Below, piece by piece: positions 723 through 62,493 of a stretch of DNA of 64,000 nucleotides. The DNA comes from an uncultured Eubacterium sp. Lineage in GTDB: Bacteria > Bacillota_A > Clostridia > Lachnospirales > Lachnospiraceae. A model generated the notes under the pieces. The model saw only the letters and a program-made list of their open reading frames with translations, did no database searches and was not told the origin of the DNA. Position 1 is the stretch's first letter. Every line of letters begins with the position of its first letter. The DNA is taken from NCBI GenBank assembly GCA_948468465.1, contig CAOKJJ010000002.1:1-64000 (forward strand), written 5' to 3'. The translations under genes and the position numbers were made by a program.

Positions 723-1124
723 CTAAGCAAGCTCTGCGATCCTTGATACTCCAACATATATTTCAGAAATCTTATACCATGTTCTGAAATCCACATCCCC
801 GGTAACCGGCAGTCCAAAAACAGACTGGAACTGTTCTACCGCTTCCTGTGTCCTTGGACCGTAAATACCATCTGCCGTAATTGTCGGCAGTGCAGGGTAC
901 GCTCTTGCGATACGATTAAGCTGCTCCTGCATCTGGCGGACTTTGCTGCCGGTAGATCCTATCGTCAGTACTACGCCCGGCCAGGAGGACGGAATGCCTG
1001 AGATCTCTTCTGCGGTATTGATATACATGTTGCTGCCGTAGTAATAGCGAAGGATTTCGATCGCAGAATATCCCTGATCTGCTCCTGTCAGACACGGACT
1101 AAAATAATTTCCTTTTTCAAACAT
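723..1124 (-). CDS. SpoIID-like/peptidoglycan-binding protein, C-terminal segment of the split gene
   Basis: Host sequence starts at codon Q (QGYSAIEILRYYYG), the end of the SpoIID signature. It continues into a peptidoglycan-binding-1 domain (GSTGSKVRQMQEQLNRI, then DGIYGPRTQEAVEQFQ) and stops at 723. The first 16 residues of this frame, including the apparent ATG at 1124, are encoded by element B and are not part of the original protein. Joining at the GAT core (1077-1079 with 47324-47326) puts this piece in frame behind the middle segment, giving WGSKYLGD|QGYSAIEIL. The product should bind cell-wall peptidoglycan. Whether the lone fragment is translated is unknown. Confidence 0.85.
   Translation of the reverse strand: MFEKGNYFSPCLTGADQGYSAIEILRYYYGSNMYINTAEEISGIPSSWPGVVLTIGSTGSKVRQMQEQLNRIARAYPALPTITADGIYGPRTQEAVEQFQSVFGLPVTGDVDFRTWYKISEIYVGVSRIAELA
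1077..1079 (-). other. element B attachment site, left end (core GAT on the minus strand)
   Basis: The minus strand here reads ...CAGGAGCAGAT|CAGGGATAT. The element side has half-site TTTAGTCC-N8-CAGGAGC, an inverted copy of the half-site at the other end of the element. The three bases GAT are shared with 47324-47326. Joining the two host flanks restores the SpoIID-like reading frame. Confidence 0.8.
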
Positions 1125-1128
1125 GCTC

Positions 1129-1227
1129 TGGACTTCGTATTCTGATCATGATATACTAAATCTACATTACTGTTCACACCTGCGGTGCTCACAGTAACAA
1201 ATCTACAAAAACCTGTGTTCTGTTACT
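1129..1227 (+). promoter_or_regulatory. promoter and possible operator of the two small genes
   Basis: TGGACT (1129-1134), a 17-bp spacer and TATACT (1152-1157) form a sigma-A-like promoter at the element B left end, reading inward. Downstream is a 7-bp inverted repeat, AGTAACA (1193-1199) and TGTTACT (1221-1227), that could be an operator. Confidence 0.5.
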
Positions 1228-1241
1228 CAGGAGGTGATCAT

Positions 1242-1433
1242 ATGCCAAGTGCAGCAGATATTATCAAAGATTCTGTAAATGAATTTTCCAGACTGCAAAA
1301 TTGGATGTTATCTGTTAAAGCCAAAAATGATATGGAAACTTATGAATCCATGCACGACAGATATATCGAATTAAAAGTAACACTAACAAGCTTAGGCGTA
1401 AATCTTGCAGAATTGGACAAGATCAAAGACTAG
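1242..1433 (+). CDS. small helical protein, first of a paralogous pair (unknown; candidate excision factor)
   Basis: This 63-residue protein starts at ATG 1242 behind a near-perfect ribosome binding site (AGGAGGTGATC). It is charged and predicted to be mostly helical, with no signal peptide or membrane segment. It matches its 63-residue neighbour along its whole length: ETYES-(M/L), L-K-(V/A)-TL/IL, GVNL, DKIKD/DRIKE. I do not recognise the family. It is the first gene inside the element B left attachment site. Small proteins next to att sites are sometimes recombination directionality factors, as in SPbeta and the C. difficile skin element, but that role here is only inferred. Confidence 0.7.
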   Translation: MPSAADIIKDSVNEFSRLQNWMLSVKAKNDMETYESMHDRYIELKVTLTSLGVNLAELDKIKD

Positions 1434-1447
1434 TGGAGGTGAAAAAA

Positions 1448-3559: not shown

Positions 3560-4573
3560 TCAATAATACTTTTCAATAATGCTTTTTTTCTCTGCAGAAA
3601 TTTTTTGCACAGCCTGAAATACTTCTTCTGTTATGATCGGAGCATGCGTATTCCGTACAATCGTCCATTCGGATGCAGGAAGCATTTTCTGCCTTTTGCC
3701 TTCATAAAAAGATGCTCTTTTGCGTCCCTGTACCATATGCCCCAAATATACCTGATTGCTTAAAATCTTCCTTATCGTCTGCGCCTGCCATAAGACATCC
3801 GCATAACGCTCACATGCTGTAAACCCTTTCAAATAACGGTAATGTGACGGCGAAGGAATCCCTTTCTGATTGAAGCTGTCCGCAATGTCCCGACAGCTCC
3901 TGCCCATCCGGCGCATTTCAAAGATTTCCCGTACAATCGGCGCTGTTTCCTCATCCGGTTCTATCCGGCGCGAATCAAACGCGCACTTTCGGTAGCCATA
4001 TGCCGCCCATGCACCGGTAAATTCTCCCCTTTGCTGCCGGGCCACATACGATGCGCCGACTTTTTTTGAAATATCCCTGCTGTACATTTCATTCATTATA
4101 TTTTTTAATGGAATCATGTACTCATCACTGATGCGCTCTGCCTTCAGTGAATCAAAATGATCCGTCACCGACAAAAAACGAATGCCTAAAAAAGGAAAAA
4201 CCCGTTCCAGATAATTACCCGTTTCAAGGTAATTACGTCCGAAACGCGAAAGATCTTTCACAACAATGCAGTCTATCCTGCCTGCTCTTACATCTTTCAT
4301 AAGTCTTTCAAACTCCGGCCGTTCAAAATGAATTCCCGTCTGCCCGTTATCGCAGTATATTCCGCAAAGCTCCATATCTTCCTGCTGTTCAATAAACCCG
4401 CGGATCAGTTCTTTTTGATTTTCTATCGTATCCGAGCCCTTTTTTTTACTGTCTTCAATGGAAAGCCTTGCATAACCGCCTGCATGGTACATGCGCTTTT
4501 TTTCCGTTTGTGCCTGTGTTTCTATACCTGCAGACAGCTGCAGCGGATTTACCTTCCGCTTTGTCCTTGCCAT
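3560..4573 (-). CDS. serine recombinase, second of the trio, short form
   Basis: It starts at MARTKRKV behind a strong ribosome binding site (GGGGGAGG), 337 residues. The catalytic domain is complete (GGYARLSIEDSKKKGSDTIE; KDLSRFGRNYLETGNY) and the recombinase domain follows. The protein stops soon after it (AVQKISAEKKSIIEKYY), so the zinc ribbon and coiled coil of the other two are missing. It may be a naturally short partner in a heteromeric system, or it may have been truncated; the next ORF begins almost directly after it. It has the same orientation and operon as both neighbours. Confidence 0.85.
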   Translation of the reverse strand: MARTKRKVNPLQLSAGIETQAQTEKKRMYHAGGYARLSIEDSKKKGSDTIENQKELIRGFIEQQEDMELCGIYCDNGQTGIHFERPEFERLMKDVRAGRIDCIVVKDLSRFGRNYLETGNYLERVFPFLGIRFLSVTDHFDSLKAERISDEYMIPLKNIMNEMYSRDISKKVGASYVARQQRGEFTGAWAAYGYRKCAFDSRRIEPDEETAPIVREIFEMRRMGRSCRDIADSFNQKGIPSPSHYRYLKGFTACERYADVLWQAQTIRKILSNQVYLGHMVQGRKRASFYEGKRQKMLPASEWTIVRNTHAPIITEEVFQAVQKISAEKKSIIEKYY

Positions 4574-4649
4574 GATACCGCCTCCCCCTTCAGATCTTTT
4601 TACTGTCCACAGTCCCATATCATTTACTTAAACTTTTCACAGTCAGACA

Positions 4650-6227
4650 CTACTCCCAAAACGCATCCCTCCAATTGAACACAATTTCCAAACGCTTATT
4701 ACAGCATACAAATATTCTTTTAACAAGTGACGCAACCAAAGTCCGGTCAAGTTCTGTGATATCCCATTCGCCTCCCTCTCTGCTGGCTGCAATTGCCTGT
4801 TCCATTTCCTCACGAATATGATCCGCCTGCTCCTCTGTCTCTGCTAAATGCGCGGTATAATCCCGTTTCAGCGTCACATATTCTTCTTGGCTGATCACCC
4901 CATCCGACAGGCTTTCAAAAAGTGAATGCAGCAGATGACGGTATCTTTCCGCTTCTTCTCTCTTTTTCTCCAAACGGTCTTTATATTTGCTGACGCCTGC
5001 CTCACGCTGCCTCGCTTCTTCCGCCATCCGCTGTAATCCGCAAATTCCTATCATATTTTGTATCTGTTTGCTTAGCGAAACAAACACCATGTTCTCCAGC
5101 ACGCTGTCCCGTATACTGTGAGCAGAACATTTTTTCTCATTTTTATGTGCTGCACAGACATAATAAACGTATTTCTTTTTTTTAGACGGTACTGTTTTGC
5201 GTATCATAGACGCCCCGCATTCCCCGCAGTATACAATGCCTGAAAACAGTTCTGCCCTGCTGCTGCCCGGACTTGTGCGTGTGTCTCGTGCGAGCACCTG
5301 CTGTACAATCGAAAAATCATTCGGCGAAATAATCGCTTCATGTGCACCTGGCACAATATCCCATTCCGCGCGCGGTTTCACGATGCGGCGCTTTACTTTA
5401 TAGCTGGGCGTCGTATTCTTACCCTGCGCAAGCATGCCCGTGTACACCTCATTTTTCAGTATCCGCAAAACCGCAGCCGCATTCCAGCAGGAATGCGCAT
5501 GTGTACAAAACGGAGTGGAAAACCGCATCCCCAGCGATTTTTTATAATCCATCGGCGCCAGAATCCCATTTTCATTCAAACGGTCTGCAATGTCTCCGGC
5601 GCTTATGCCGTCCATTTTCCAGCGAAAAATATCCCTCACCACCTCCGCGGCATATACATCCGCAACCAGATGATTTTTATTTTCCGGATCTTTTAAATAC
5701 CCGTATACAGCAAAAGCTCCGGTAAAGTCACCCCGCCTTCGCTTGATCTCCAGCTGGCTTCGTATTTTTACGGAAGTATCCCTGCAGTACGCCTCATTGA
5801 TCAGATTTTTAAAAGGGATCATCAGGCTGTCTGCTTCTTTATTGCTGTTTAGGCTGTCATAGCCGTCATTGATTGCGATAAATCGCACGCCCAGAAACGG
5901 GAATATTCGTTCGATATACTCTCCCGCATCCAGATAGTTTCTGCCAAAGCGAGACAAATCCTTTACTACGATGCAGTCTATCTTCCCTGCCTTTACATCC
6001 GTCATCATTTCCTGAAAAGCGGGACGTTCAAAGCTGGATCCGGAAAAACCGTCGTCCACTCTCATCCCGCATTCCATAAGCTCCGGATGACGGTGAAAAT
6101 AATCGCGAATCAGCTCCTTCTGCCCCGTAACGCTGTTGCTTTCCTCCCGGTCGGCATCTTCATGCGACAGACGTACATAGCCGCAGGCATTCCATGACTT
6201 TTTGCTTTTTACCGCACTGCTCAGCAT
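4650..6227 (-). CDS. large serine recombinase, first of the trio
   Basis: This 525-residue full-length protein has the catalytic domain with nucleophile Ser in GYVRLSHEDAD and arginines in KDLSRFGRNYLDAGEY, a recombinase domain (about 170-290), a zinc ribbon (CGECGASM...CAAHKNEKKCSAH) and a coiled coil (about 400-470). The start overlaps the end of the DUF6870-like gene by 7 bp, which implies translational coupling. It is the most complete candidate integrase of element B. Tandem recombinase sets of this kind are known on some Gram-positive integrative elements. Confidence 0.92.
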   Translation of the reverse strand: MLSSAVKSKKSWNACGYVRLSHEDADREESNSVTGQKELIRDYFHRHPELMECGMRVDDGFSGSSFERPAFQEMMTDVKAGKIDCIVVKDLSRFGRNYLDAGEYIERIFPFLGVRFIAINDGYDSLNSNKEADSLMIPFKNLINEAYCRDTSVKIRSQLEIKRRRGDFTGAFAVYGYLKDPENKNHLVADVYAAEVVRDIFRWKMDGISAGDIADRLNENGILAPMDYKKSLGMRFSTPFCTHAHSCWNAAAVLRILKNEVYTGMLAQGKNTTPSYKVKRRIVKPRAEWDIVPGAHEAIISPNDFSIVQQVLARDTRTSPGSSRAELFSGIVYCGECGASMIRKTVPSKKKKYVYYVCAAHKNEKKCSAHSIRDSVLENMVFVSLSKQIQNMIGICGLQRMAEEARQREAGVSKYKDRLEKKREEAERYRHLLHSLFESLSDGVISQEEYVTLKRDYTAHLAETEEQADHIREEMEQAIAASREGGEWDITELDRTLVASLVKRIFVCCNKRLEIVFNWRDAFWE

Positions 6228-8370: not shown

Positions 8371-10374
8371 TTAATCTGCGCCATGCCCGTCTATGGCTTG
8401 AAGCGGTACACGGTACATCCGGCCGTCTATGGCAAGTATAACCGCATAGTCCTTGTTTTCTTCCTGTTCTATTTCAGCAAAAACCGCAGAATATTTCCCA
8501 TCAAACACATCTGTCCTGCCGGGAGCTTTTTCCTGTATAACATCATAATAGGCATATTCATCCGTATCATGATCATACAATTCCACATACACTTTCTGTT
8601 CAAAAGAATTTGTACCCTTTTTATAAATGCTCCCTTTGATCATAAAATTGTCATATGCATACATATTTACGTCGCTGACAATATCCGCACTGTCTGCCTC
8701 ATGAATCTGTTCCGTATTTAAGCTGATATCTCCGTTGCGCATCATATAAATCTGCGTCAAACCCATATCCGCAATGTGCGATACATAAAAATATCCGCCA
8801 TAGTTTTCATTTAAATAGGCAGCCGCACGCTGCGCATAGTCATCTGACGTAAATCGCACCTTCTCCAAATCTCCGAGCAGTACATCGCCTAAAAATGTGT
8901 TATTATACATCATATATTCATTTTGCGTCATCAGAAAATTTTTAAATTCCCCTGCCTGCAGTCTGTCAAACGGACCGTCTTTTTTATAATAGCCCATATG
9001 ATTTGTAACATAAAAATGGTCTTCATCCGCATGAACCCATTCTGTCAGCTGCTGCAGATTTGCTTTTTGGCTGCTGCTTACGGTCTGTGAGAGATCTGCA
9101 TAGCTGCGTTGAATCATCATAAGCATTACAATCGCCACAGCAAAAGAATCATACTTTCGAAGCTCGGCATTTTCTATGTAAATATCTTCCAAAAACTGAA
9201 TAATCAGAATCATCACGGTCAACCATATACAGACACGAACCTGTGAAAACTGATCATTTCCATGTAAAAAGCAAGCCATATAAGCGGCCATTACAGCAAT
9301 GCAAATATAAACTGTCCGTCTGCTTTTCTCTTTCGAAGCTGACAGATAAAACAGAAAAAGAAAAATCAGCACTCCATAAAATAACGGCGTATCAAAAAAA
9401 CGTATCGGATAATTTCTGGTAAATGCCAGTATTTTTTGAAATCCGTGACGGGAACTGTCGGATAACTGCCGGATTTTCAGAAGCGTTTCGAGCGGAACCT
9501 GATAGCCCAGTACGACCTCATTTTTTACAAGCATATCATATGTATTTTTTGAAATTCCAAGCGATTCATATTCCGACTGACAGACATAATAATCCGGCCA
9601 GCCAAAGTTATCTATATATTGATAATTCTGCATATATGATACATATTCCTGAATCTGCGGGTATCTGCGGATATAAAAATCATGAAAACATTCCATGAAA
9701 ATACTAACAGCAGCTGCAGATGCAATTACCAGCAGAATAAAACTTCCTCTTTTTTTATTTTCTCCCCGCATAGATTTGTATAATCGGTATCCGCACGGAA
9801 CAGCCATTATCAGTCCAGCCAGGACAACAGAAAAATCCCACCATAAATATCCTGTTACAAAAAATATAAACACCGCTGCCAGATAACGTCTTCTATGCAG
9901 TTTTCCGTCCGCTATCTGATATAACAGAAAATACGCTGCCGCCGCACAGACAGAGCCGGTCTTTGTATAACTGATACGTGCATAGCATTCGTACCCAAGC
10001 AAAAACAAAAAAACAAAACATACGATATATCTGCCCCAGTTACGTTTGTCCTGCAAAACAATAAGCGTAATCACCATAAAGCAAATAAAAATACATACAT
10101 ACTGCAGCAATGCATACCATGGAACATGTGGAATGGCCAGGTACAGTTTTTTTATGATATAGCCTGTAACCAAATTGACATATCCGTATCCCGTACCATG
10201 ATCCGTGTGTGATCCTGCAAAAATATGACACAAAAACTGATCGTTTTGAGAAGCAAAACGCACATCGCAAACCAGCTGATAAAAAATTACGCATGCCGCA
10301 TTTAATAAAAACACCTTCCAGAAAATCTTTTTATTCCCTGCAGAAAGCTTATCGTTCGCATGTTGTTTTATCAT
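8371..10374 (-). CDS. multi-pass membrane protein, GT-C glycosyltransferase-like (paralogue of its neighbour)
   Basis: It is about 667 residues, starting at MIKQHAND behind GGAGGAGAA (4-bp gap to an overlapping region of the upstream gene). About ten or more hydrophobic helices span residues 20-420. A large extracytoplasmic domain follows, ending in a beta-rich module (NSFEQKVYVELYDHDTDEYAYYD...MYRVPLQA). The first external loop holds acidic residues, as in GT-C enzymes that use polyprenyl-phosphate sugars. The same layout and C-terminal module are found in the next gene. No name is recognised; transfer of lipid-linked sugars outside the membrane is inferred. It is the last gene of the glycan operon. 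Confidence 0.6.
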   Translation of the reverse strand: MIKQHANDKLSAGNKKIFWKVFLLNAACVIFYQLVCDVRFASQNDQFLCHIFAGSHTDHGTGYGYVNLVTGYIIKKLYLAIPHVPWYALLQYVCIFICFMVITLIVLQDKRNWGRYIVCFVFLFLLGYECYARISYTKTGSVCAAAAYFLLYQIADGKLHRRRYLAAVFIFFVTGYLWWDFSVVLAGLIMAVPCGYRLYKSMRGENKKRGSFILLVIASAAAVSIFMECFHDFYIRRYPQIQEYVSYMQNYQYIDNFGWPDYYVCQSEYESLGISKNTYDMLVKNEVVLGYQVPLETLLKIRQLSDSSRHGFQKILAFTRNYPIRFFDTPLFYGVLIFLFLFYLSASKEKSRRTVYICIAVMAAYMACFLHGNDQFSQVRVCIWLTVMILIIQFLEDIYIENAELRKYDSFAVAIVMLMMIQRSYADLSQTVSSSQKANLQQLTEWVHADEDHFYVTNHMGYYKKDGPFDRLQAGEFKNFLMTQNEYMMYNNTFLGDVLLGDLEKVRFTSDDYAQRAAAYLNENYGGYFYVSHIADMGLTQIYMMRNGDISLNTEQIHEADSADIVSDVNMYAYDNFMIKGSIYKKGTNSFEQKVYVELYDHDTDEYAYYDVIQEKAPGRTDVFDGKYSAVFAEIEQEENKDYAVILAIDGRMYRVPLQAIDGHGAD

Positions 10375-10378
10375 CTTC

Positions 10379-12490: not shown

Positions 12491-12542
12491 CCTAACATTC
12501 CTCCCCATTCCAGTGCTTAAATTTACACGGAACGCCCTTCTT

Positions 12543-13391: not shown

Positions 13392-13400
13392 GCACCTGTC

Positions 13401-17069: not shown

Positions 17070-17077
17070 GTCTCATT

Positions 17078-49812: not shown

Positions 49813-49883
49813 TGCACAAAAAAATCACTTAAAAAACCTATTTCTAAGTTCTAAAGTGATTTTTCTATCCGATTTTTTGTGCA
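49813..49883. terminator. nested hairpin terminator after the DUF4160-like gene
   Basis: AAAATCACTT (49821-49830) pairs with AAGTGATTTT (about 49855-49864), enclosed by a weaker TGCACAAA/TTTGTGCA pair (about 49813-49883), with T/A runs on both sides. The rest of 49570-49953 holds no supported gene and probably contains the promoter for the small protein and integrase. Confidence 0.65.
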
Positions 49884-49953
49884 TTTTTCACGAAATTTAT
49901 CTTTTTTATACTGTTCCCAAAAGTGCTTCATTTTCCTAGAAAAAAAATTGATT

Positions 49954-50494: not shown

Positions 50495-50607
50495 AGCTTT
50501 TACACTCCTTTCTTTGTTTTTATTATATCCCCATCTATTGCAAAATACAATCAGTATTTTCGACTGCATCATTAACAATCCACTGTTTACCCTCATAGGC
50601 ATCTTTC

Positions 50608-51255: not shown

Positions 51256-51785
51256 TAGTTTTCTCTCCTTATTAATTCTTCAAACAGTTTTTTGTACGTA
51301 GTCCCAGAAAGTCTGTGGTTTCCCTCTATTTCGTGTATTTCGGCATTTCTAAGATAATTTTTTGTGAACCTGGAATCTAATACATCATCATCTTTTCCAA
51401 GAATTACAAAAGTACTGCAAGATGTTTCATGAAGCCTTTTATGATAGGCAAGTTCTGTTAATTCCTTTAAATCACGCAGAAATTCTTCTGGATATACCGG
51501 TATCAATTCCCGAATGTATCTTGTCGGCGGAATACAGGGATTGGTAAGCAGACATGAAATATTCAGTTCAGCTCCCATTATGTAAGCAAAAAATCCTCCA
51601 AAAGAATTTCCTGCGATAAAATTGATATTTTTTATGGTGTATAATCCATCTATAACATTGTATGGAGAACGCTTCTCATAAGCTATCTGCGGTGAACAAA
51701 TCTCTGAAACAGGATATAACTCTGTTAAGATTCTGTAATTCGTATTTTCGGCAGTTCCATACAAACCATGTAAATTTAAAATCAT
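51255..51785 (-). CDS. alpha/beta-hydrolase, YqiA-like esterase
   Basis: This 176-residue protein has an N-terminal ILNLHGLYGTAENTN (oxyanion region), nucleophile elbow GNSFGGFFAYIMG (G-N-S-F-G), a catalytic-acid region VILGKDDDVLD and a His in IEGNHRLSG. It is a small YqiA/UPF0227-type fold. AAGGAG lies 11 nt upstream of the start. It is coupled to the NADAR-type gene; the substrate is unknown. Confidence 0.8.
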   Translation of the reverse strand: MILNLHGLYGTAENTNYRILTELYPVSEICSPQIAYEKRSPYNVIDGLYTIKNINFIAGNSFGGFFAYIMGAELNISCLLTNPCIPPTRYIRELIPVYPEEFLRDLKELTELAYHKRLHETSCSTFVILGKDDDVLDSRFTKNYLRNAEIHEIEGNHRLSGTTYKKLFEELIRREN

Positions 51786-51854
51786 CTATGCAAAAATCTC
51801 CTTGTATAATCTTTTGGTAGATATAGTACTTTCCGTCAGTTTTCTATCTTGCTG

Positions 51855-53024: not shown

Positions 53025-53041
53025 GATAAAATCCCCTTTTT

Positions 53042-53506
53042 TCAATCAACAGTTTTCTTGTTTAATTTCTCCAATGCGTCAAATACCTTATGGTATACTA
53101 CCTGATTTGGATAGTATCTGTAATCGGCAAAGATAGAGATTCCTGTTTTTTGGAAATGTTCTAATATTGCCGCCGCACACGCAGAACTTCGGCTTTCCCC
53201 ATATTCACACTGGCATATAATATCTAATCCATCTGCTTTTGCAGTATAGATAAATTCTGCCAGATCATCCGCTTCGGTAAAATAAGTATCATAAGTCAGG
53301 TTATATTTCGGCAGGACAGACAAATCAATGTCATGTACCGCAACCTGAAAAACACGGCTTGCCTTACCAGAATAATCTACAGGGATATAAGAATCATCCC
53401 GAAATGGAGTGGGCGGGTCATAAAAGCTGATAACCGCTGTATTTTTCGGAAAATCCGTCTGTAAAAGTTTTTCTACTGCTTTTCTGGAATAGATATTTAC
53501 ATTCAT
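53042..53506 (-). CDS. CX5R protein tyrosine phosphatase-like protein
   Basis: It is 154 residues from MNVNIYSRKAVEKLL (GAGGTG upstream). The phosphate-binding loop is CEYGESRSSACAAA (C-x5-R-S), preceded by IICQ where typical enzymes have HC. An N-terminal acidic DPPTPF loop could give the general acid. It resembles small dual-specificity-like phosphatases on Firmicute mobile elements. It lies directly after the resolvase gene. Confidence 0.7.
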   Translation of the reverse strand: MNVNIYSRKAVEKLLQTDFPKNTAVISFYDPPTPFRDDSYIPVDYSGKASRVFQVAVHDIDLSVLPKYNLTYDTYFTEADDLAEFIYTAKADGLDIICQCEYGESRSSACAAAILEHFQKTGISIFADYRYYPNQVVYHKVFDALEKLNKKTVD

Positions 53507-53513
53507 GTATTTC

Positions 53514-54101
53514 TCACCTCTCAACAATATTCAGATATTTGTATATAGTTGGATATGATAAGGAACAAAGCCGGGAAAGCTCCTTTTTATTAATTTCCCC
53601 TTTCTTGTACTTTGGATAATGCTTGTAAAATATATGTGGGATGTTATTTTCGGTAGTGGCAGGTCTTCCAACTATCTTTCCTTTTGCTTTTGCGTGTTCC
53701 ATTCCGCTTTTTACCCTCTGGCTTATCATGTTCCTTTCAAGTTCAGCAAAAACCCCCATCAATTTTAACATTCCCTCTGTCATGGGGTCAAGTTCCTTAC
53801 TGCAATCTACAATGAATGTGCCAAGAACCAGTTTGATTTGTTTTTCTTTTGCAAGTTCTATAATGTCGCAGAGTTGTTTGGTGCTCCGGGTGATTCTGCT
53901 GACTTCTGTTGCGTAAATGGTATCACCCTCTTTTACAACATTCAGAAGCTTTGCTAATTCCGCACGGTTTATTTTTGTGCCGCTCTCATATTCCATATAG
54001 ATTGTTTCATCCGTTGCACCCTGTTGTTTTAGTTCTCGGACTTGTCGGGTAATGTCCTGTAAATCTTCATTCGTGGAACATCTTGCATATCCATAAACCA
54101 T
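53514..54101 (-). CDS. small serine recombinase (resolvase/invertase type)
   Basis: This 195-residue protein has catalytic Ser in YGYARCSTNEDLQDITRQV, EVSRITRSTKQLCDII and helix E FAELERNMISQRVKSGMEHA, then GRPATT and a C-terminal helix-turn-helix (KKELSRLCSLSYPTIYKYL). It is the size of Hin/Tn3 resolvases, so it should catalyse local inversion or resolution rather than element integration. AAGGAGG lies upstream. Whether it acts on any inverted repeat in this window is unknown. Confidence 0.92.
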   Translation of the reverse strand: MVYGYARCSTNEDLQDITRQVRELKQQGATDETIYMEYESGTKINRAELAKLLNVVKEGDTIYATEVSRITRSTKQLCDIIELAKEKQIKLVLGTFIVDCSKELDPMTEGMLKLMGVFAELERNMISQRVKSGMEHAKAKGKIVGRPATTENNIPHIFYKHYPKYKKGEINKKELSRLCSLSYPTIYKYLNIVER

Positions 54102-54123
54102 AGAAGCCTCCTTTTTCAGTGCA

Positions 54124-54852
54124 TCAAAATATCATGTGTCTTGCCCTTGCCATGCAGGCATGAAAAGCCCAATCCAGACAATCCAGATAGATTCCGTTTG
54201 GTTCTACATAGTTTTCTTTCAGTTCCTTACGGATAGTCGTCTGAAATTCCATATATTCCTGATAACTCCAATATTCGGCACGCTTTGTTTTTTCATGAGA
54301 ATACCAATCCATCTGGTAACTGTCAGGGGTATCAGGTATGCACGGAGCACACTTTAAACCCAGTTCATATTGATGCCTTTTTCTTTTAAGCGTGGCAACC
54401 TGCAATAGAGAATCATTCACTGGAATATGAAAATATTTTCTTGTATCTTTTACAGACCAGTATCTTGTGTTCATATTGGATTCAATAATTGTTAGATGCA
54501 ACAAGGCGAAGTTCAGCCATTTTTGAGCAATTCCATATGTCTGTCCACTTGTTTCATTAAATATCTGCATAATTAATTCACATAGTTCATGGTGTGTTTT
54601 ATCAAATGTTTCTTGACCGTTATCAGCTTCGTTTGCCGATTGTAAGAGATTTGGAATTCTATCAGAAAGAAGATGCTCTGTTATTAAGATTAGGTTACCC
54701 TGTCTGCTGTCATTCATTTGAACCGGGAACAGTCCTCGCCGACCGGAATCCAGAAAAGCTCCGTGTATCGCTTTTAATATGATTTGTGAATGGTCATCTT
54801 CTCCATTAATGTTATAGTGCTTGTATAACAAATATTCTGTTTCCCTATTCAT
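54124..54852 (-). CDS. uncharacterised 242-residue protein
   Basis: It starts at MNRETEYLLYKHYNING behind AAAGGAG, 22 bp upstream of the resolvase gene. It is soluble, with many aromatic and His residues and no signal peptide. The segments IFNETSGQTYGIAQKWLNFA and YLDCLDWAFHACMARARHMI are distinctive, but no family is recognised. It is probably cargo of element A. Confidence 0.75.
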   Translation of the reverse strand: MNRETEYLLYKHYNINGEDDHSQIILKAIHGAFLDSGRRGLFPVQMNDSRQGNLILITEHLLSDRIPNLLQSANEADNGQETFDKTHHELCELIMQIFNETSGQTYGIAQKWLNFALLHLTIIESNMNTRYWSVKDTRKYFHIPVNDSLLQVATLKRKRHQYELGLKCAPCIPDTPDSYQMDWYSHEKTKRAEYWSYQEYMEFQTTIRKELKENYVEPNGIYLDCLDWAFHACMARARHMIF

Positions 54853-55002
54853 TGTGTTCTCCTTTTAATTTTTGATAACATCTGTCATAAATTATAAATG
54901 AAATGGTGTGTTATATTTCATTTATAGTTCTGATGCAGAATCCTATGTAATCTTAATGGTTTCTCCATACAGAAAACTATAAATGAAAAGAGATGTTTGT
55001 TT

Positions 55003-56400
55003 TTATATCTGATTTTTTAGTATTGCTTCACACCGCATTACTTTTTCACTTTCATTTAGATTATCATTTAAAATAACTTCCATTATAGCTTTCTTTTGAG
55101 CCTGACGGATAGGAATAATATTTGTTTTAGCTTCATTATTCTGCGTAAGTTCTTTCTTTATGTTTTTTATTTCCTTGTAGTTTCTCCAACATAAATAAAT
55201 GGCTACTCCCACAAATACAACTGGCAAAATCGACATAGCAATAGAAATAATAATTATCCCTATACCATTTTGGATAGTGGCTAAAGGCATAAAAAGCAAT
55301 GCTATTGGAATTGGAATGCCGCATACTCCTAACCAAATCCAAACAAATTTCAACCAACATTTTTTCTTTCTGTCGTTTAGAACAGAACATTCATTGTCAT
55401 ATTGCCGTTTTATATTTTCTATAGAAACATCTTCCGGGTCGATCTTTCCTTTAACAGAATCTTCGCATTCATCAGATATTAAGCGATTGCCTGATTTCAT
55501 TCGAGTTCCAACAGAACCTCTAAAATTGCCCGAAACAAAACATTCATATTTTTGCCCGCTGAATTCATAAATAACATGATAGACTGGACAATACCATATC
55601 TGGCAAATTTCATCGGAATCAAATTCCATGTGCAAATCTGCATATGCCTGACCGGGAATTTTCCCGATGCACTCTTTCTTTGCCATTGACTTCGCTTTAG
55701 ACAGTTCAGTATCAACATCACTTTCATTTAGCGGTTTCGATTGCCTGATTACCATTCCATCTTTAACTGCTTCTTGCGAATAAGGAATTTTCTGATTTTC
55801 TACTGAATCTGAATGAAATATTATACTTGAAAATAAATCATCAGCAGCATGATTTTCCAAATGCATGGGAAATGGATATTCCTTATCATGATAGTAAGTA
55901 TGATTCCCTCTTATCTCACCGGAATTCCTTTTCCGTCCGGTTTCCTTTTCGTATGAGACATTTTCAGTAACAGGTACAGTCACTTCTCTGGGTTCCCAAG
56001 GCTTGGTAAGTGCATCTCCGGAATAACCTTTTGCTGTGGATGTGAAAGGATGCAATACACCGCTTTTCCATCTTTTCGCTTTTGTGTCATAATAATCAAA
56101 TCCAGATTTTTTATGTTCCTCTCCAAAACGGTCAAAATAATGAATCTGCTGTTCATAATGTGTTTCCTGTTCCGTCCAACGTTCTTTAAAAATACTGACT
56201 GCATTCCATTTAGCTGTATAACTGATTTCTAATCGTTCTACGGGATAATACTCCTTATCAATCGAAACAAGGCGGCTATGGCAAATTGCTTCAACAGGTG
56301 ATGTTTCTTTTTCGCTTAGGTATCGAATTACCTCTTTCCAAACAGTAGATTTTTGAACAGAAAACGGAATAACAAAGGTTTCTCTATTTTCAAAATTCAT
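55003..56400 (-). CDS. uncharacterised membrane protein
   Basis: It is about 465 residues from MNFENRETFVIPFSVQKS (AAGGAGGG upstream). A large soluble N-terminal part is followed by two hydrophobic helices near residues 370-430 (WIWLGVCGIPIPIALLFMPL; GIIIISIAMSILPVVFVGVA) and a charged tail. IWYCPVYHVIYEFSGQKYEC and CFVSGNFRGSVGTR may form a small domain. No family is recognised. It lies 19 bp downstream of the 150-residue gene, so the two are probably co-transcribed. Confidence 0.7.
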   Translation of the reverse strand: MNFENRETFVIPFSVQKSTVWKEVIRYLSEKETSPVEAICHSRLVSIDKEYYPVERLEISYTAKWNAVSIFKERWTEQETHYEQQIHYFDRFGEEHKKSGFDYYDTKAKRWKSGVLHPFTSTAKGYSGDALTKPWEPREVTVPVTENVSYEKETGRKRNSGEIRGNHTYYHDKEYPFPMHLENHAADDLFSSIIFHSDSVENQKIPYSQEAVKDGMVIRQSKPLNESDVDTELSKAKSMAKKECIGKIPGQAYADLHMEFDSDEICQIWYCPVYHVIYEFSGQKYECFVSGNFRGSVGTRMKSGNRLISDECEDSVKGKIDPEDVSIENIKRQYDNECSVLNDRKKKCWLKFVWIWLGVCGIPIPIALLFMPLATIQNGIGIIIISIAMSILPVVFVGVAIYLCWRNYKEIKNIKKELTQNNEAKTNIIPIRQAQKKAIMEVILNDNLNESEKVMRCEAILKNQI

Positions 56401-56419
56401 AGATTTTTCCCTCCTTGGA

Positions 56420-56872
56420 TTACTCTCCAAAATAATATACTTCTTCCTCATACCTGTTACAAAGCCTGGTAAAAGCTGATTCAAAGTCAGACATTTCAAC
56501 TTCGGTATAATCATGGATAAATTCTTCTACACAAATCATCCCATCTGTAAACCAGCGTTGGTGTTCCTCGTTATCTCCCATATAGGAAATCGACCTTAAA
56601 ACGGCTTCTGTAAACTTTCCACAGGCATCAAATTCCCATTGTTTTATGTTGTCTGGATAATTATTAATTGAAGAAAAAATTGCTAAACGGTCTGTCAGGG
56701 CAGTATCTGAACATGAAATCATACAATGTTTGATATGTACCGTCAAATATTTCCATGTATCTAAAAATAAAGTCTTAAAAATATCTAATGACATTCCCCG
56801 ACAGGCTTCCAAATCATTCAACAACTGATCCCAATTATTTTTTAATTCTTCCCGGTCATTTTGAGCTTTCAC
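56420..56872 (-). CDS. uncharacterised 150-residue protein
   Basis: The GTG start at 56872 has GGAGG 6 nt upstream. The protein is acidic, soluble and helical (NNWDQLLNDLEACRGMSLDI; VEEFIHDYTEVEMSDFESAF). No domain is recognised. The gene is upstream of and close to the membrane-protein gene. Confidence 0.65.
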   Translation of the reverse strand: MKAQNDREELKNNWDQLLNDLEACRGMSLDIFKTLFLDTWKYLTVHIKHCMISCSDTALTDRLAIFSSINNYPDNIKQWEFDACGKFTEAVLRSISYMGDNEEHQRWFTDGMICVEEFIHDYTEVEMSDFESAFTRLCNRYEEEVYYFGE

Positions 56873-57016
56873 CTTTTACCTCCTTCGGTTGTTTACAATC
56901 ATAATATTTTCTATAAGCGATACCTTTCAGCAAGGAAATCTCTTGATATATTGATTATAATAAGTCCTCTGGGATGTACAAGGGCACTTAATAATTTCAT
57001 AATATTTAGGTGTATG

Positions 57017-57874
57017 TCAGGATTTCATTTTCTGGCATGGTTTTTCCTGCCCGTTCCTGCAATATTTCCTTATTACACAATCACAGCACAATGGACGTCT
57101 GCTTGTGCAGATTTCTCCATAACCTGTTGCACAATACGACCACAAAATATAATCCACTTCCGCAACATGCCTGTTTAAGATATCTGCAATTTCCCTGACA
57201 ATTTCCATTGCTTCAAATACTGGAACAATTTCCAGTTCTGAACAGGCTAATATACTGTTTCCCAGTATCCGGCGGACATGTCTGTCAGGTTTTGCAAGGT
57301 CATAACCGACATTCCGCAGATATTCCGCTGTCAGGGCTTCGCTCAATTGTTTCATCTTATTTTCACTGTCAGATTGTGAGAGTGTTTCTATCAGTGTTTG
57401 AAAAGAGGAATCTTTCTCTATAAAACGCTTGTAGTAACTGTCAATACTTCCGAAAGTATCTTCCCATTGTTTTAATTTTCTGATATTATCAGGAATCAAA
57501 CCTTTTAATTGATTATTAGTGCTTATGCCTGCCAATTTCTGTACTTTGATTTCCTCTTTCAGTGTTTCTACAGAACAGGAGAGTAGAGTATCGGCATCAT
57601 AGTTTTGGAAAATTTTATCTATAGACAGGATTCTTCCTGTGCTTTCATCAATATCTTTCTCCACACGCTCCCATGAAATTCCCGAACTCAACATAGCGTA
57701 TACCATGCCCCGGATATGGTCGCTGATTGTAAAGTGTTTTCCCTGTTCCCTTTTTTCAATCTGCTTCTTTACGTGAGTATTCTCCCACAATTTTTTCCCA
57801 TGCAGAACAGTTTTTAAATATTCCCCCATGATTTCTACTGATTCTGCGGTTCTTGCAATCGCTTCTTTGTTCAT
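57017..57874 (-). CDS. EndoIII-like HhH-GPD protein with iron-sulfur loop
   Basis: It is 285 residues. The C-terminal CTSRRPLCCDCVIRKYC matches the C-x6-C-x2-C-x5-C [4Fe-4S] loop of endonuclease III/MutY. YLRNVGYDLAKPDRHVRRIL gives the catalytic-Asp region (P-D-x-H-V). The N-terminal 150 residues are unlike EndoIII. DNA base excision or DNA binding is inferred. It overlaps the small XRE gene upstream by 4 bp (ATGA), so the two act as a unit. Confidence 0.7.
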   Translation of the reverse strand: MNKEAIARTAESVEIMGEYLKTVLHGKKLWENTHVKKQIEKREQGKHFTISDHIRGMVYAMLSSGISWERVEKDIDESTGRILSIDKIFQNYDADTLLSCSVETLKEEIKVQKLAGISTNNQLKGLIPDNIRKLKQWEDTFGSIDSYYKRFIEKDSSFQTLIETLSQSDSENKMKQLSEALTAEYLRNVGYDLAKPDRHVRRILGNSILACSELEIVPVFEAMEIVREIADILNRHVAEVDYILWSYCATGYGEICTSRRPLCCDCVIRKYCRNGQEKPCQKMKS

Positions 57875-58119
57875 TTGTTTTTTTCTCCTTTTTCTGGCTG
57901 TTGATACTGTCTCGGACAGGAGTGCTTTACTTCAATAAACAATTCCGGGCTGACATTCAGCGCAAGACAGATAGCCCTTAAATCATCTGCATATAATGTA
58001 CGTTTTCCATTCAAAATAGCATTGAATGTATTCTTTGGAATCCCTGCTTTTTCCGCAACGGCCACTTGCTTCAATCCATTTTCATCTATATATGCACGAA
58101 CTTTCTGATAAACAGACAT
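57871..58119 (-). CDS. small XRE/Cro-type regulator coupled to the EndoIII-like gene
   Basis: This 82-residue protein has a helix-turn-helix KQVAVAEKAGIPKNTFNAIL followed by LYADDLRAICLALNVSPELF. It overlaps the EndoIII-like gene and is transcribed divergently from the XRE gene at 58403. The two probably form the repressor pair controlling element A, or this one may autoregulate the EndoIII-like unit. Confidence 0.88.
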   Translation of the reverse strand: MSVYQKVRAYIDENGLKQVAVAEKAGIPKNTFNAILNGKRTLYADDLRAICLALNVSPELFIEVKHSCPRQYQQPEKGEKNK

Positions 58120-58321
58120 ATTCCGTATCTCCTTTTTCTATTTCTACTATAAAAGTACTGCTGAAATAGTCAAGAGTACTTAATAATTTGGTAACATTGT
58201 AACATTTTAGTAATATTTAATGTGCCTGAGAATTTTATGAGCATACTGTTTTTCATCCCCCTTTCACTTCCAGAATTTCATGATTTTTTACCATAATATC
58301 ACAGTAATACTGTATTTTCAA

Positions 58322-58380
58322 GTTAAAAATCCAGTTTTTCATGATTTTTAACTTTACTTTTCAGATTCTGTGTGTATAAT
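58322..58380 (+). promoter_or_regulatory. promoter and operator palindrome of the divergent XRE gene
   Basis: A perfect 10-bp inverted repeat (GTTAAAAATC at 58322-58331, GATTTTTAAC at 58343-58352) abuts TTTACT (58353-58358), 16 bp, TATAAT (58375-58380). A related TTTCATGATTTTT lies near 58277. This is a likely autoregulatory operator in the 58120-58402 divergent region. Confidence 0.65.
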
Positions 58381-58402
58381 TAGAATAGAATAAAGGCAGG
58401 TG

Positions 58403-58723
58403 ATGGAATTGAAATATGAAATAGGCGGGCGAATCCGCAAATATCGAGAAGCATGTGGGATAAGCCAGGTACAGTTAGCTGAAAAACTGGGGATAAGCAA
58501 TAACAGGGTTTCAAATTGGGAACAGGGAATCAACAGGCCAGATGCAGATATTCTTGCTGACATATGCAGAGCATTAAATATTTCCCCAAGTGAATTGTTG
58601 GATGTCCGTTTATCTTCTGATGAACTGAATGAGAAAGAACGGGAGATTATCCGGGCATATCGTTCAAAGCCGGAATTACAGCCGGCAGTAGATATTTTAC
58701 TGGGGATTTCCGGTGATTCATAA
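58403..58723 (+). CDS. XRE-family regulator, divergent, of element A
   Basis: It is about 106 residues (ATG 58403; GTG 58400 is possible; AAGGCAGG upstream). The helix-turn-helix is SQVQLAEKLGISNNRVSNWE followed by RPDADILADICRALNISPSE. The C-terminal ELNEKEREIIRAYRSKPELQ is typical of such repressors. It is the only plus-strand gene of element A and a candidate lysogeny-type repressor. Confidence 0.9.
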   Translation: MELKYEIGGRIRKYREACGISQVQLAEKLGISNNRVSNWEQGINRPDADILADICRALNISPSELLDVRLSSDELNEKEREIIRAYRSKPELQPAVDILLGISGDS

Positions 58724-59240
58724 TTTGTTATGGGAAACCTTATATATTTTTGAGATTAGATTAAAGTAACTGTTTTTATCTTGTTCATAAAAATTCATGA
58801 AACCGTCAGGATATTTTGTGAAACAAGATGCATCTAACCGAGATGGAAAAGAACAGTGTTACCTATATATTTATCCATATGGAAAAGAAAACAGGCTCAA
58901 AATGGAAGAGAACCTTTGAGAAAGGGTGTAGACCATGAAACATTTACAGGAAAAACAGACGCTTCTAAAATCCCACGTTTAAACATATATCTGATTTGAT
59001 TTACGCGGTCAATGAGGGAAATATCCTTGTATTCATGGATATTGAACGAATGCCGTAAGGGTTCATGCAAACAGCTTGCTGTAGGGTATGGTACCAGGAT
59101 GGGAGAAAATTTTTCAAACATCCAACTCCTTGTATATCTGCGTATGAAAATAGCCATTGAAATTCCATCAATGGCTATTTATTAAATATCCATCCTCTAT
59201 TTATGGTGGTGAATGGTAGAGAAATCATAAACTTTTGAAA
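58724..59240. other. 517-bp intergenic stretch with a bidirectional terminator
   Basis: A strong hairpin at 59149-59181 (AATAGCCATTGA / TCAATGGCTATT) has T runs on both strands and should end the primase transcript. The remaining sequence has only short, unsupported frames (for example an 86-codon minus-strand frame at 58897-59157 with no ribosome binding site or recognisable domain). I see no gene here. Confidence 0.6.
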
Positions 59241-61559
59241 TTAAAATTCCAAATCATTTTCTGAAAAGTTATCTATCTCTCCACCATCCTCTATCATAGA
59301 TGGAGGAGTAATGTAAGGTATACGGAATTGCTTTATTCTTACCCCGTCATAAAAACTTCCTCTCGCATTGCTCTTATGTTTGTATCCGGCTTCAGTCATT
59401 GCTTTTTTAAATGCGGGGCAGCTTTTGATATGTTCACCTGTATTTATGCAGTAATCCTTATAATTATTATAGAGTTCACCTGCTTTTTCAGAATAGGCCC
59501 TGTCAGTTTCACAGCATTCAAACAGATAATTTTGAATCCAATTATTTTCAGCCCGATATGTTTTAATTGCTTGTTTTACAATTTCCGGCTGTGATATTTT
59601 ATAATCTGATTCTATGAATTTCTGCGCTCCCTGTATCATCCATGATAATACAGCACCCCCGGAGTTTTGAAATAAGTATTCTGTATAATTTTTTATTTCC
59701 TCACTGTCATGAATAACAGTCTGAAAAGGCACAACAACCAATCTGCGCCATGTTCCGTTATCCAATGCTTCAACAGATGGAAGATGGTTGGTACATAGAA
59801 CAGTTGTATGTGTTGGTATAAATGAAAATGGATTTTTATATTTTTTCTCTGCATATATCATGTCTGTAGAACATAATTGTTTTAAAGAAGCTGTATCAAG
59901 CTGTCTGCCGTCTTCCAGTTCCGAAGCAATTACCAGACGTTTCCCACGCAGTTCAGCAAATTCATTCTTTTTATTTATCCGGGAATTTTTTATAAGTATC
60001 TCCGCTGATAGATTGCCGGAATAATTTCCCATAACCATAGAAAGCAGATTAAAAAACGTGCTTTTACCATTTTTTCCTGTACCGTAAGCAATAATAAGGT
60101 TCTCACAATATACCTTTCCGATCAGACACATTCCGGCGATATACTGTAAGTACTGTTTTAATGATTGATTATGATTGGTAATGGTTTCCAAAAAGTTCTG
60201 AAATAACTCTGCGTTTTGTAAATCTGGGCTTACTGTTGTCATCTTTGTACAATAATCCAAGGAATTATGTGGATTTTGTGTTCCTGTCCGCAAGTTTATG
60301 ATACCAGCAGGGGTATTTAATAAAAATCCGTCTTTGTCGAGTTTTTCTATATCAATTTCAACCATAGGCTGTGCTTCGGATAAAACGGCAGTAATACAGG
60401 AAGCGTTACGACGTTTCATAACAAATTTCCGATAATTTTCAGCATTCTTAATATTTCCTTTTACGCTTTCCTGCTTCGAAACATCATCATTTATGATCGC
60501 ATTATTTTCCTCTTTTCTGGCTTCTGTCAGTAAAGAAGAAACCTCTTTTAATTGATATGTTGTCAGAAGCTGTACAAAACGATGGATTTTGGTTTTACTT
60601 TCAACCCATACTTTACCATTGTAATAAAGATAGTCCGTTGCGGTAGAATAACGGACAACATCTTTAAATACCTTTACGAATACATTCGTCTGTCCTAAAT
60701 CCGTAAAATCATTTGGTTTCAATGTTTCTGCTTTCGAAAACAATTCGTATAATTCCGGCGGAAGATAATCAGGACTGTTCTCCGTTTTTTCATGATAATG
60801 TTTACAAACACTTTCCCAGATACTGATTAGTTCTGTTTCTTCCATAGGCGGTACACATTTTTTAATTTCGCTACAAAATGCGGAATATGCTTTATCAGAT
60901 TCTCCCCAGCGTGTGACTACACGGGTTGCATAGTCAAAAAGTGTACTATGTCGTTTCCCATAAGGAATAATACTGTTATTTTCTGGAAAACTATTCTTAT
61001 TAAATGATTCCTGAATATCTATTTCAACTGTTTCCATAAAATCTGACAATACAATATCTCCATCATAAAATTCTATCTGCGGATTTTCAACACCAAAGAA
61101 AAAACGGGCAGAATCCTTTGCATTAGCATCAAATGCTGTAAAATAGGCGCATACTTTATTTTTCAGTTTTTGATATTCTGTACTGTTTTCAATCAGCCTG
61201 TCAGGAAAATATACATGGAACTTCGGACGTGCCGCCTTTCCATCTTTTATTTTCATGTGGTTTCTTGAAAATACAATATAAAAACATACATTCGGAAACT
61301 GTTCCTTAATATCAACAGGATATATCCAATCGGAAGAATTATCACTGTCAGAATTATCAATATCGAACATGGTACAGTTTGATTGGATAAAATGCTCTTT
61401 TTTTCTGTGATTATTCTTGTACCTGGCACACACATGGTCATGGGATACGGCTGTCTTTAAATCATTTTCGGAACTTATTTGAATCTCATTCGGATAAAAC
61501 TGATTGCTTGCAGTCTGGCATGTGTTGCTGTAAAATAGTGTAAAATTGGTTTTTGTCAT
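59241..61559 (-). CDS. P4-family primase-helicase (D5/SF3)
   Basis: This 772-residue protein starts behind AGGAGG. The N-terminal primase-like part has a DxD-type TMFDIDNSDSDNSSDW and RPKFHVYFPD. The middle is a D5_N-like linker. An SF3 helicase follows with Walker A AYGTGKNGKSTFFNLLS, Walker B-like RLVIASELEDGRQLD and sensor TTVLCTNHLPSVEALDNGTW with arginine finger RRLVVVPF. It should start replication of the excised element. It lies at the right end of element A, reading inward. Confidence 0.9.
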   Translation of the reverse strand: MTKTNFTLFYSNTCQTASNQFYPNEIQISSENDLKTAVSHDHVCARYKNNHRKKEHFIQSNCTMFDIDNSDSDNSSDWIYPVDIKEQFPNVCFYIVFSRNHMKIKDGKAARPKFHVYFPDRLIENSTEYQKLKNKVCAYFTAFDANAKDSARFFFGVENPQIEFYDGDIVLSDFMETVEIDIQESFNKNSFPENNSIIPYGKRHSTLFDYATRVVTRWGESDKAYSAFCSEIKKCVPPMEETELISIWESVCKHYHEKTENSPDYLPPELYELFSKAETLKPNDFTDLGQTNVFVKVFKDVVRYSTATDYLYYNGKVWVESKTKIHRFVQLLTTYQLKEVSSLLTEARKEENNAIINDDVSKQESVKGNIKNAENYRKFVMKRRNASCITAVLSEAQPMVEIDIEKLDKDGFLLNTPAGIINLRTGTQNPHNSLDYCTKMTTVSPDLQNAELFQNFLETITNHNQSLKQYLQYIAGMCLIGKVYCENLIIAYGTGKNGKSTFFNLLSMVMGNYSGNLSAEILIKNSRINKKNEFAELRGKRLVIASELEDGRQLDTASLKQLCSTDMIYAEKKYKNPFSFIPTHTTVLCTNHLPSVEALDNGTWRRLVVVPFQTVIHDSEEIKNYTEYLFQNSGGAVLSWMIQGAQKFIESDYKISQPEIVKQAIKTYRAENNWIQNYLFECCETDRAYSEKAGELYNNYKDYCINTGEHIKSCPAFKKAMTEAGYKHKSNARGSFYDGVRIKQFRIPYITPPSMIEDGGEIDNFSENDLEF

Positions 61560-61626
61560 CGTGTTTACCTCCTATTTTCCATACAGAGAGATTGTCTCTG
61601 AAATTTTTGTATTTGAGGGCATAAAA

Positions 61627-61669
61627 AACAGCCATGTTGTTATCCCAAAAGATAACTAACATGACTGTT
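61627..61669 (-). terminator. terminator placed for the circular-form integrase
   Basis: On the minus strand a long stem (AACAGTCATGTTAGTTATC / GATAACAACATGGCTGTT) is followed by six Ts. It lies 40 nt after the stop of the cryptic integrase tail (61709-61711), so in the excised circle it would terminate integrase transcription. Confidence 0.75.
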
Positions 61670-61708
61670 TTCGTTAGTTTTTAGAATTATGGCTTGTCCG
61701 GTCAATGA

Positions 61709-61805
61709 TTACCGATATTCGACGGAATAAGCAGATTTCCCTGTCATTTTGATAATCAATTCATTCAGTGTAAGGGCTTTGCAACCCTGAATCACCGTGT
61801 ATTCC
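61709..61805 (-). other. alternative 3' end of the integrase gene (used only in the excised circle)
   Basis: Across the reformed attP (GGTACCG) the integrase frame Y-G-V-P continues as EYTVIQGCKALTLNELIIKM and TGKSAYSVEYR, then stops. It is open for 31 codons in exactly the right frame and is followed by a terminator. In the integrated state this piece has no start. Confidence 0.75.
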
Positions 61806-62493
61806 GGTACCATTCCGTATAAACCCGATTCATCGTAAAAGACATAATCGCCAGTATATTCGCCCGTATCGTCGCATCCGGCCAGGTCGCATAGATCTCG
61901 CTGGATGCGACGTTTTTAATATAATCTTTATATCGGATATAATAATCAGTCGCAGTCGTATCTGTCGGGGCGCCGTCATGCACTACGACATATTCCGGTA
62001 CTACAACTCTGCTAAGTACAATTTCACCGGTCTGACGGACAGGCTTGATCTCGGCTTCTTCGATTTTCGGAGGGAAATTGCCAAACAAGGTATTTGCAGG
62101 AATGACAATGTCGTCCGGCCAGGTGGCTGCCGCGCCTATCGGCTGTAACCGGATATCCTGCACAGCAGTCTGGTCTGAAAGCACCTGAACTCCGTTCACC
62201 GTTACCGGCTGGTAGCCTTCCGCCGTAATCTGAATCGTGTATTGTGCATATGGCTGTGTTTCGGACGGCTCCAGGCTGTATTCCAGCGGCGGTGCCTCCA
62301 AATCAACCTGTTCTGTCTGTCCGGACTCATTCGTACTGATTTCTTCGAATGTACTGTCCGGTTCTCCCGTATAAGAAATCGTAACTCTTGCGTCCGCAAT
62401 CGGATCCCTGTTAACCCTGGATTCCACGCTTACCCGCAGCCTGCCCGTATCCGGCATGTCTGCCTGCGTATGATATATACTCTTCATAAGCAC
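61792..62493 (-). CDS. SpoIID-like protein, N-terminal segment of the split gene
   Basis: The GTG start at 62493 has AAGGA 7 nt upstream. Residues about 15-115 form a carboxypeptidase-regulatory/CNA_B-like beta domain (GRLRVSVESRVNRDPIADAR, TAEGYQPVTVNGVQVL). From about 185 the SpoIID domain starts (DYIKNVASSEIYATWPDATI, ANILAIMSFTMNRVYTEWYR). After R230 the frame enters element A and stops (NTR). No signal peptide is evident. Restored length is 422 residues. SpoIID enzymes are sporulation lytic transglycosylases; that this paralogue is sporulation-specific is inferred. Confidence 0.85.
   Translation of the reverse strand: MLMKSIYHTQADMPDTGRLRVSVESRVNRDPIADARVTISYTGEPDSTFEEISTNESGQTEQVDLEAPPLEYSLEPSETQPYAQYTIQITAEGYQPVTVNGVQVLSDQTAVQDIRLQPIGAAATWPDDIVIPANTLFGNFPPKIEEAEIKPVRQTGEIVLSRVVVPEYVVVHDGAPTDTTATDYYIRYKDYIKNVASSEIYATWPDATIRANILAIMSFTMNRVYTEWYRNTR
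61805..61811 (-). other. element A attachment site, right end (core GGTACCG on the minus strand)
   Basis: The minus strand reads host GAATGGTACCG then element GAATACACGG. The seven bases GGTACCG match 47550-47556. Joining the host flanks gives E-W-Y-R-N-K-G-Y in frame. Confidence 0.85.

Follow-up and report, generated by a model that had tools for sequence, protein, structure and literature searches.

The question raised by this locus is whether a gene that lies in three pieces, separated by two elements, has been lost by insertion or can still be rebuilt by excision. The window, which is the whole stretch of 64,000 nucleotides analysed here, comes from an uncultured Eubacterium sp. of the family Lachnospiraceae. 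In the initial annotation, three collinear minus-strand pieces were proposed to form one 422-codon gene for a SpoIID/peptidoglycan-binding protein, interrupted by two elements of different type and with exact in-frame joins at GGTACCG (site A) and GAT (site B). The gene, its sites and the two elements are arranged as follows.

61805..62493, minus strand: 5' piece of the gene (N), from a GTG start at 62493 to ...EWY/R at site A; matches intact homologues
61805..61811, minus strand: site A core, copy 1, GGTACCG on the gene strand (CGGTACC on the plus strand), with the palindrome GGTACC
47550..61804, minus strand: element A, 14.26 kb, annotated with Pfam; excised length as expected from the core copies
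47550..47556, minus strand: site A core, copy 2 (CGGTACC on the plus strand)
47327..47549, minus strand: middle piece of the gene (M), bounds from the re-read sequence
47324..47326, minus strand: site B, copy 1, GAT (ATC on the plus strand), followed by the element end with TATAATAGGACTAAA
1080..47323, minus strand: element B, 46.2 kb, with an XRE regulator, a surface-glycan locus and three serine recombinases (Pfam)
1077..1079, minus strand: site B, copy 2, GAT (ATC on the plus strand), with the element end with TTTTAGTCCGTG upstream
723..1079, minus strand: 3' piece of the gene (C), with a peptidoglycan-binding domain and the stop at 723

The non-redundant join of 62493-61805, 47549-47327 and 1079-723 gives 1,269 nt, which is 422 codons plus a stop, in frame. 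The middle piece is real, but the bounds first given for it, 47556-47326, repeat the 7-bp core and end one base into GAT, and the exact piece is 47549-47327. A search of 5.8 billion proteins returned intact homologues of 422 aa whose identity, over 100% of the length, reaches 95%. Intact genes exist at 92-95% identity to that of the window, and an uninterrupted ORF in a related locus (L001, 91%) crosses both junctions, which indicates that both joins are right and did not arise by chance. The check proposed with the annotation, a search for intact homologues aligning across the junctions, was therefore positive, and the single gene, its exact in-frame joins at both sites and the anatomy of two different elements within it are all supported.

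The identity proposed for the product stood in part. The peptidoglycan-binding domain is present in the 3' piece, whereas the SpoIID assignment of the closest intact homologue appears weak: PF08486 (SpoIID) matched P0003, a homologue with 95% identity, at 19.0 bits, below the curated cut-off of 23, and exceeded that cut-off in P0074 (26.7 bits) and P0254 (23.5 bits). Matches to TIGR02669 reached 26.5 and 30 bits against a cut-off of 83.3, and the AlphaFold model of P0003 was poor (pLDDT 53, pTM 0.34).

The distribution of the gene points to a role in sporulation. Across 150 genomes of the family, of which 102 had a match to the gene, the gene and spoIVA (TIGR02836) agreed in 147 (101 with both, 1 with the gene only, 2 with spoIVA only and 46 with neither; phi 0.95), where spoIVA was counted from any match at E 1e-30 or better, including genomes with paralogues only, and the two draws of 150 were taken as the same genomes from their common handles. 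In the nearest genus, spoIVA is present in 12 of 13 genomes, in 10 of them above the cut-off. Moreover, the strict motif AC-N15-17-CATANNNTA, which we take to be the sigma-K consensus, lies upstream of the gene in 39 of 79 loci, the corresponding counts being 13 in 3,740 random windows and 7 in 1,043 regions before other ORFs; 79 of 80 loci were used (L011 had too little upstream sequence), and they are not independent because the loci are related. The promoter of the window's own gene misses the strict motif by one base.

62494..62560, minus strand: promoter region of the gene, with the near-match AC-N16-CATATGCTG, whose last base departs from CATANNNTA

By this genomic association, the gene interrupted by the two elements is probably a sporulation gene.

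Element A possesses, according to Pfam, a serine recombinase, a small ORF, a resolvase, a NADAR-DarT1 antitoxin, an HTH protein and a D5 primase-like protein. The recombinase is here labelled recA, which is only a name for the recombinase of element A and does not refer to the RecA protein.

47535..49316, minus strand: recA, large serine recombinase of 593 aa; its 3' end runs into the middle piece of the gene
49327..49623, minus strand: small ORF directly upstream of recA, with a conserved C-terminal part

recA is open in 15 of the 16 elements checked and occurs at the same site in three other genomes of the nearest genus (G005, where it is frameshifted, G006 and G007), with proteins 78-82% identical. 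A similar small peptide precedes recA in all 13 elements compared, the window included, and from this position the small ORF is a candidate directionality factor; a candidate was assigned in element A and none in element B. Searches of phage records with recA yielded nothing at 60% identity or above and only matches under 60%, while viral contigs contained two loci at 57-61%. The element is mobile, as identical recA genes are found in the inverted elements of G432 and G435, two species with saturated host divergence (L166 and L171), indicating recent transfer. In addition, the window and G006 share near-identical cargo, their D5 and DUF4160 genes having diverged far less than the hosts, and recA of this pair is less diverged than the hosts as well. 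Such horizontal movement implies that some insertions of A-type elements are recent. The inverted orientation of element A in G432 and G435 would be permitted by the palindromic GGTACC. The NADAR-DarT1 antitoxin gene is located at 50608-51255, and no DarT match was found among the neighbours scanned.

Element B carries its three recombinase genes in tandem at one end and a large glycan locus over most of its length.

46461..46841, minus strand: XRE-type regulator heading the glycan locus
8371..46471, minus strand: glycan locus (Pfam)
4650..6227, minus strand: recB3, serine recombinase of 525 aa, with DUF6870 beside it at 6221-6487
3560..4618, minus strand: recB2, serine recombinase of 352 aa
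1931..3481, minus strand: recB1, serine recombinase of 516 aa

The ends of element B form an imperfect inverted repeat (GGACTAAA/TTTAGTCC), which is found again, somewhat altered, at the B ends of other species. The glycan locus encodes NeuB, a Wzm/Wzt-type ABC transporter, glycosyltransferases, aminotransferases, LuxC/LuxE, a polyST-like protein and UbiA, together with several ORFs without a Pfam match. Phage structural and conjugation genes were absent among the 58 window proteins scanned with Pfam, a set that does not contain every small ORF; a relative of recB1 was not found in the viral contigs, and PADLOC, run on 10 window proteins, gave one weak OGG match.

The same gene is split repeatedly in the nearest genus, where the joined protein was searched in 13 genomes. 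It is intact in four of them (G002, G003, G004 and G010) and split at site B in six (G001, G005, G006, G007, G008 and G009), three of which (G005, G006 and G007) are split at site A as well, like the window. Of the remainder, G011 carries its split at a third site (C), the match in G012 runs into a contig edge and G013 has no match, so that with the window counted there are seven B cases and four A cases. The junction positions agree at the level of the base, except on the C side of site B, where several species have GAC as against GAT on the M side. Exact in-frame joins at a short repeat are found in the window, G005, G006 and G007, and the pieces of these four are all open; at site B, some species have only GA of the three bases in common. 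recB1 and recB2, whole or in part, adjoin the C piece in the window and in all six genomes split at site B. In G001, recB3 and DUF6870 lie on the contig of the M piece (L037 7502-9368) in reverse orientation, unlike recB1 and recB2, which lie beside the C piece.

The recombinases of G005 are frameshifted, and like frameshifts at A-runs were seen in its spoIVA and in a gene that we label sigE-like, so base-calling error is a possible cause. Recombinase decay was considered as the cause; the like frameshifts in spoIVA and the sigE-like gene do not allow decay to be told from error. G005 also has another island with its own serine recombinases nested in recB3 (L106 16303-20000, L109 11233-15022).

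The cargo at site B differs between species. Glycan cargo throughout element B was considered and rejected, because in G006, G008 and G009 pyr genes come first: pyrCFKD and their usual neighbours lie just inside site B (L111 15600-19998, L117 9796-15762, L119 3535-9566). In G006, one 132-kb contig contains the M and C pieces about 58 kb apart, with pyrCFKD and the neighbouring genes just inside the site; in G008 and G009 the same genes follow M, and the C pieces are on other contigs. The orthologue of this pyr block is the only pyrD match in 12 of the 13 genomes of the genus, and G006 has a second copy at 63%. In the other species the block lies elsewhere, on separate contigs or, in G005, at a distance of 2.8 Mb. 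Since the B interval of G006 holds pyrCFKD, its loss would probably be costly in vegetative cells and would not be so in the mother cell.

Splitting of the gene extends across the family. Among the 102 genomes with a gene match in the family sample of 150, 15 were called split, comprising 4 at site A (two from one piece only), 10 at site C (two incomplete) and 1 at site B; G012, G142, G110 and G079, with partial matches, some at contig ends, were not called split, and G087, in which two matches overlap and one starts at a contig end, is a possible further case. Site C has the core GGATGAC (NWMT/QWGSK); in about 10 of the 102 genomes it is occupied by an element of roughly 3-24 kb whose serine recombinase resembles recB at 24-28% (L121 7478-10785; L136, L137, L138, L139, L141-L142 and L145-L146). 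The join at site C is in frame on both sides in the three cases read (G011, G067 and G037).

A protein search with the N piece revealed many truncated proteins ending at site A among the best 120 of 6,567 matches, in which the single sequences P0242 and P0236 stand for 405 and 316 contigs. Two sister species, G419 and G422, match P0242 at 100% and 99%, and both are split at site A. An intact protein more than 93% identical to the G419 gene was not found among the best 120 of 7,993 scored matches, which represent clustered proteins and not a survey of strains. In a second genus, the N piece is present in 28 of 29 genomes, with short frames in 14 and long frames in 14, a count that rests on open-frame length. 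Eleven of the 14 short-frame loci were fetched in full, and 10 of them have a recA-like gene at site A, the contig of G408 being uninformative. Three draft contigs (G424 C55, G417 C97 and G434 C10) stop some 125-245 bases beyond the N piece at site A, as would be seen if the assembly had forked. In G422 and G419 (L161 and L162) a second break follows CPNWLSKW, at about 10430-10520 in gene orientation and two codons beyond site C; it possibly represents a fourth site.

If insertion had killed the gene, the severed pieces should drift. Instead, they are under purifying selection (dN/dS < 0.05) where the recombinases of element B have diverged at least as far as the chromosome, a comparison based on few independent cases, namely two clades for element B and, for element A, two pairs. 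Between the window and G005, dS is 0.58-0.81 for recB1-3, 0.70 and 0.96 for the neighbouring GntR and GHMP genes, and 0.66-0.82 for the three gene pieces; omega of the C piece is 0.014, with 3 nonsynonymous differences observed against 133 expected if neutral. Within G006, G008 and G009, recB1-3 have dS of 0.83-1.51 (recB1 highest) compared with 0.70-1.03 for the neighbours, and omega of the C piece is 0.037-0.047. Intact pairs gave C-piece omega values of 0.021-0.064 in 5 of the 6 with finite dS. Codon models of split and intact genes yielded omega values of 0.028-0.057 and 0.056 for N, 0.008 and 0.007 for M, and 0.022-0.043 and 0.038 for C, respectively. For element A the co-divergence signal is mixed. 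Two pairs diverge roughly in step with their hosts: in the pair G411-G432, dS is 0.58 for recA, 0.58 for N and 0.56 for the later part, with omega about 0.02, and in G419-G422 recA has 0.18 compared with 0.28 for the gene. The A elements of G411 and G432 are in opposite orientations, so this pair does not represent one undisturbed insertion, and our confidence in excision was lowered slightly for this.

We consider it likely, at a probability of roughly two in three, that the split gene is rebuilt by excision of both elements during sporulation, probably only in the mother cell. As predicted from sequence, recA would join the copies of site A, where the palindromic GGTACC has TA as its central dinucleotide, and at site B the joining would fall to one or more of recB1-recB3; two independent deletions would be needed before the gene becomes readable, the excised circles would be lost with the dying mother cell, and the forespore would keep the split gene and the islands. 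Developmental excision, as suggested in the initial annotation, is consistent with the co-occurrence with spoIVA, the sigma-K-type motif in relatives, the reuse of sites and the purifying selection, but no excised junction or circle was seen, and the promoters of the recombinases are not recognisably of sporulation type: in 12 of 13 elements the 700 bp before recA contain no strict sigma-K motif (the thirteenth has one about 480 bp from recA), none was found near DUF6870/recB3 in any of three cases, and other sigma types before the recombinase genes were scanned crudely. A more specific proposal, whose odds we judge slightly better than even, is an AND gate at the level of DNA, in which a late mother-cell gene in three pieces becomes readable only after two programmed deletions, each carried out by a recombinase system unrelated to the other. 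Under this proposal, elements throughout Lachnospiraceae make repeated use of three fixed in-frame sites, and the larger interval of one clade, having taken in a core pyrimidine operon, would be discardable only in a terminal cell.

Plain insertional loss, in which two mobile elements landed by site preference and left the gene dead in the lineage, would agree with the fact that the elements carry their own recombinases, with the horizontal movement of A-type elements, with the possibly broken recombinases of one carrier, G005, and with the failure to see excision. It is disfavoured for this genome and seems unlikely, since, where the recombinases co-diverged with the host, the severed pieces remain open and strongly constrained by purifying selection, the pieces read keep their frame from species to species, and G419 and G422 lack an intact form among the matches listed. 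Somewhat less probable still is a polymorphism within species, in which elements come and go among strains, selection acts in the intact strains and the element rarely leaves its host species. Such a polymorphism would account for co-divergence together with selection, and intact close relatives as well as the mobility of element A in either orientation fit with it; however, the 405 and 316 split contigs for G419 and G422 had no intact counterpart above 93% among the matches listed, and the core pyr operon in the B interval of G006 sits poorly with casual loss. The surface-glycan locus with its own regulator, and a recA gene with no recognisable sporulation promoter close by, could also be expected if excision were reversible, of low frequency in growing cells and apart from sporulation, giving phase variation of the glycan locus and the gene. 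This we regard as quite improbable, because the target gene tracks spoIVA and has a sigma-K-type motif in relatives, so that rejoining would matter mainly in sporulation, and because the genes next to M in G008 and G009 are pyr genes and not glycan genes.

Excision of both elements in the mother cell would have precedents of several kinds. The fdxN element of heterocyst-forming cyanobacteria undergoes developmental excision by the serine recombinase XisF, but it belongs to another phylum and another developmental programme, and recA and recB1-3 matched the XisF model weakly (72-113 bits, cut-off 375). SCC elements of staphylococci are inserted at rlmH; recA and recB1-3 scored 32-110 bits against the CcrA/B/C models, far below the cut-offs of 700-900, which does not place the present elements in SCC. 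SCC, mentioned in the excerpts of PMC5595907, is alike in being a site-specific island with Ccr-type serine recombinases.

The nearest known system is gin in gerE of Bacillus cereus. According to the excerpts of its description (PMC5595907), gin is likewise an island of non-phage type that carries three serine recombinase genes and interrupts a sporulation gene of the mother cell, with a short core repeat, cargo that varies between strains and precise rejoining in sporulation. It differs in being one element in one gene, with another target, and in having a girA/girB operon with girC apart instead of the tandem recB1-3; as the same excerpts state, excision of gin was demonstrated, whereas excision here is predicted from sequence. 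In skin (sigK) and SPbeta (spsM), as far as the excerpted reports go, a sporulation gene is also interrupted by an element that has a serine recombinase and persists in the germ line (PMC4191935, PMC5025042, PMC6957869), and almost all such intervening elements lie in mother-cell genes (PMC6957869, in excerpt). These are prophages or prophage-like elements that occur singly, in a gene for a sigma factor or for polysaccharide; here, two elements share a SpoIID-like gene, and one of the two carries a glycan locus. Another intervening element in a sigma-K-regulated clostridial gene, yin in yabG of Clostridium botulinum, was seen both integrated and as an excised circle and is reported, in the excerpt of PMC10747680, not to have been found in other strains or species, while here the same sites recur across a family. 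Neither two elements in one gene nor this gene as a target was found in the excerpts of open-licence PMC literature on skin, SPbeta/spsM, vfbin, gin and yin. The new part is two elements in one gene, of a kind known from skin and gin.

In the excerpted literature consulted, developmental excision in spore formers so far concerns a handful of genes with one element each. Here, common gut-type bacteria have a conserved gene that unrelated elements split at as many as two of three fixed sites, and there is evidence from several lineages that the split gene still works. Developmental excision would make sporulation of uncultured Lachnospiraceae testable by a simple junction assay and would account for gene prediction giving only truncated proteins here. 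The recombinases would form a naturally occurring collection of serine recombinases whose sites are defined and partly palindromic, and a surface-glycan island, or a core pyr operon in a sister clade, might be carried within a gene that the lineage does not thereby lose.

Finally, some minor features were observed around the C piece and element B. A second XRE-type gene starts at the left edge of the window (1-110), outside element B, and resembles the XRE gene at 46461-46841 within the element. The C piece of G005 is followed by an XRE gene and glycan genes; a glycan locus may be native to this neighbourhood. Between recB1 and the C piece are two small paralogous ORFs on the plus strand (1242-1433 and 1449-1640), with one relative immediately ahead of the C piece in G005 and another past that piece in G006.
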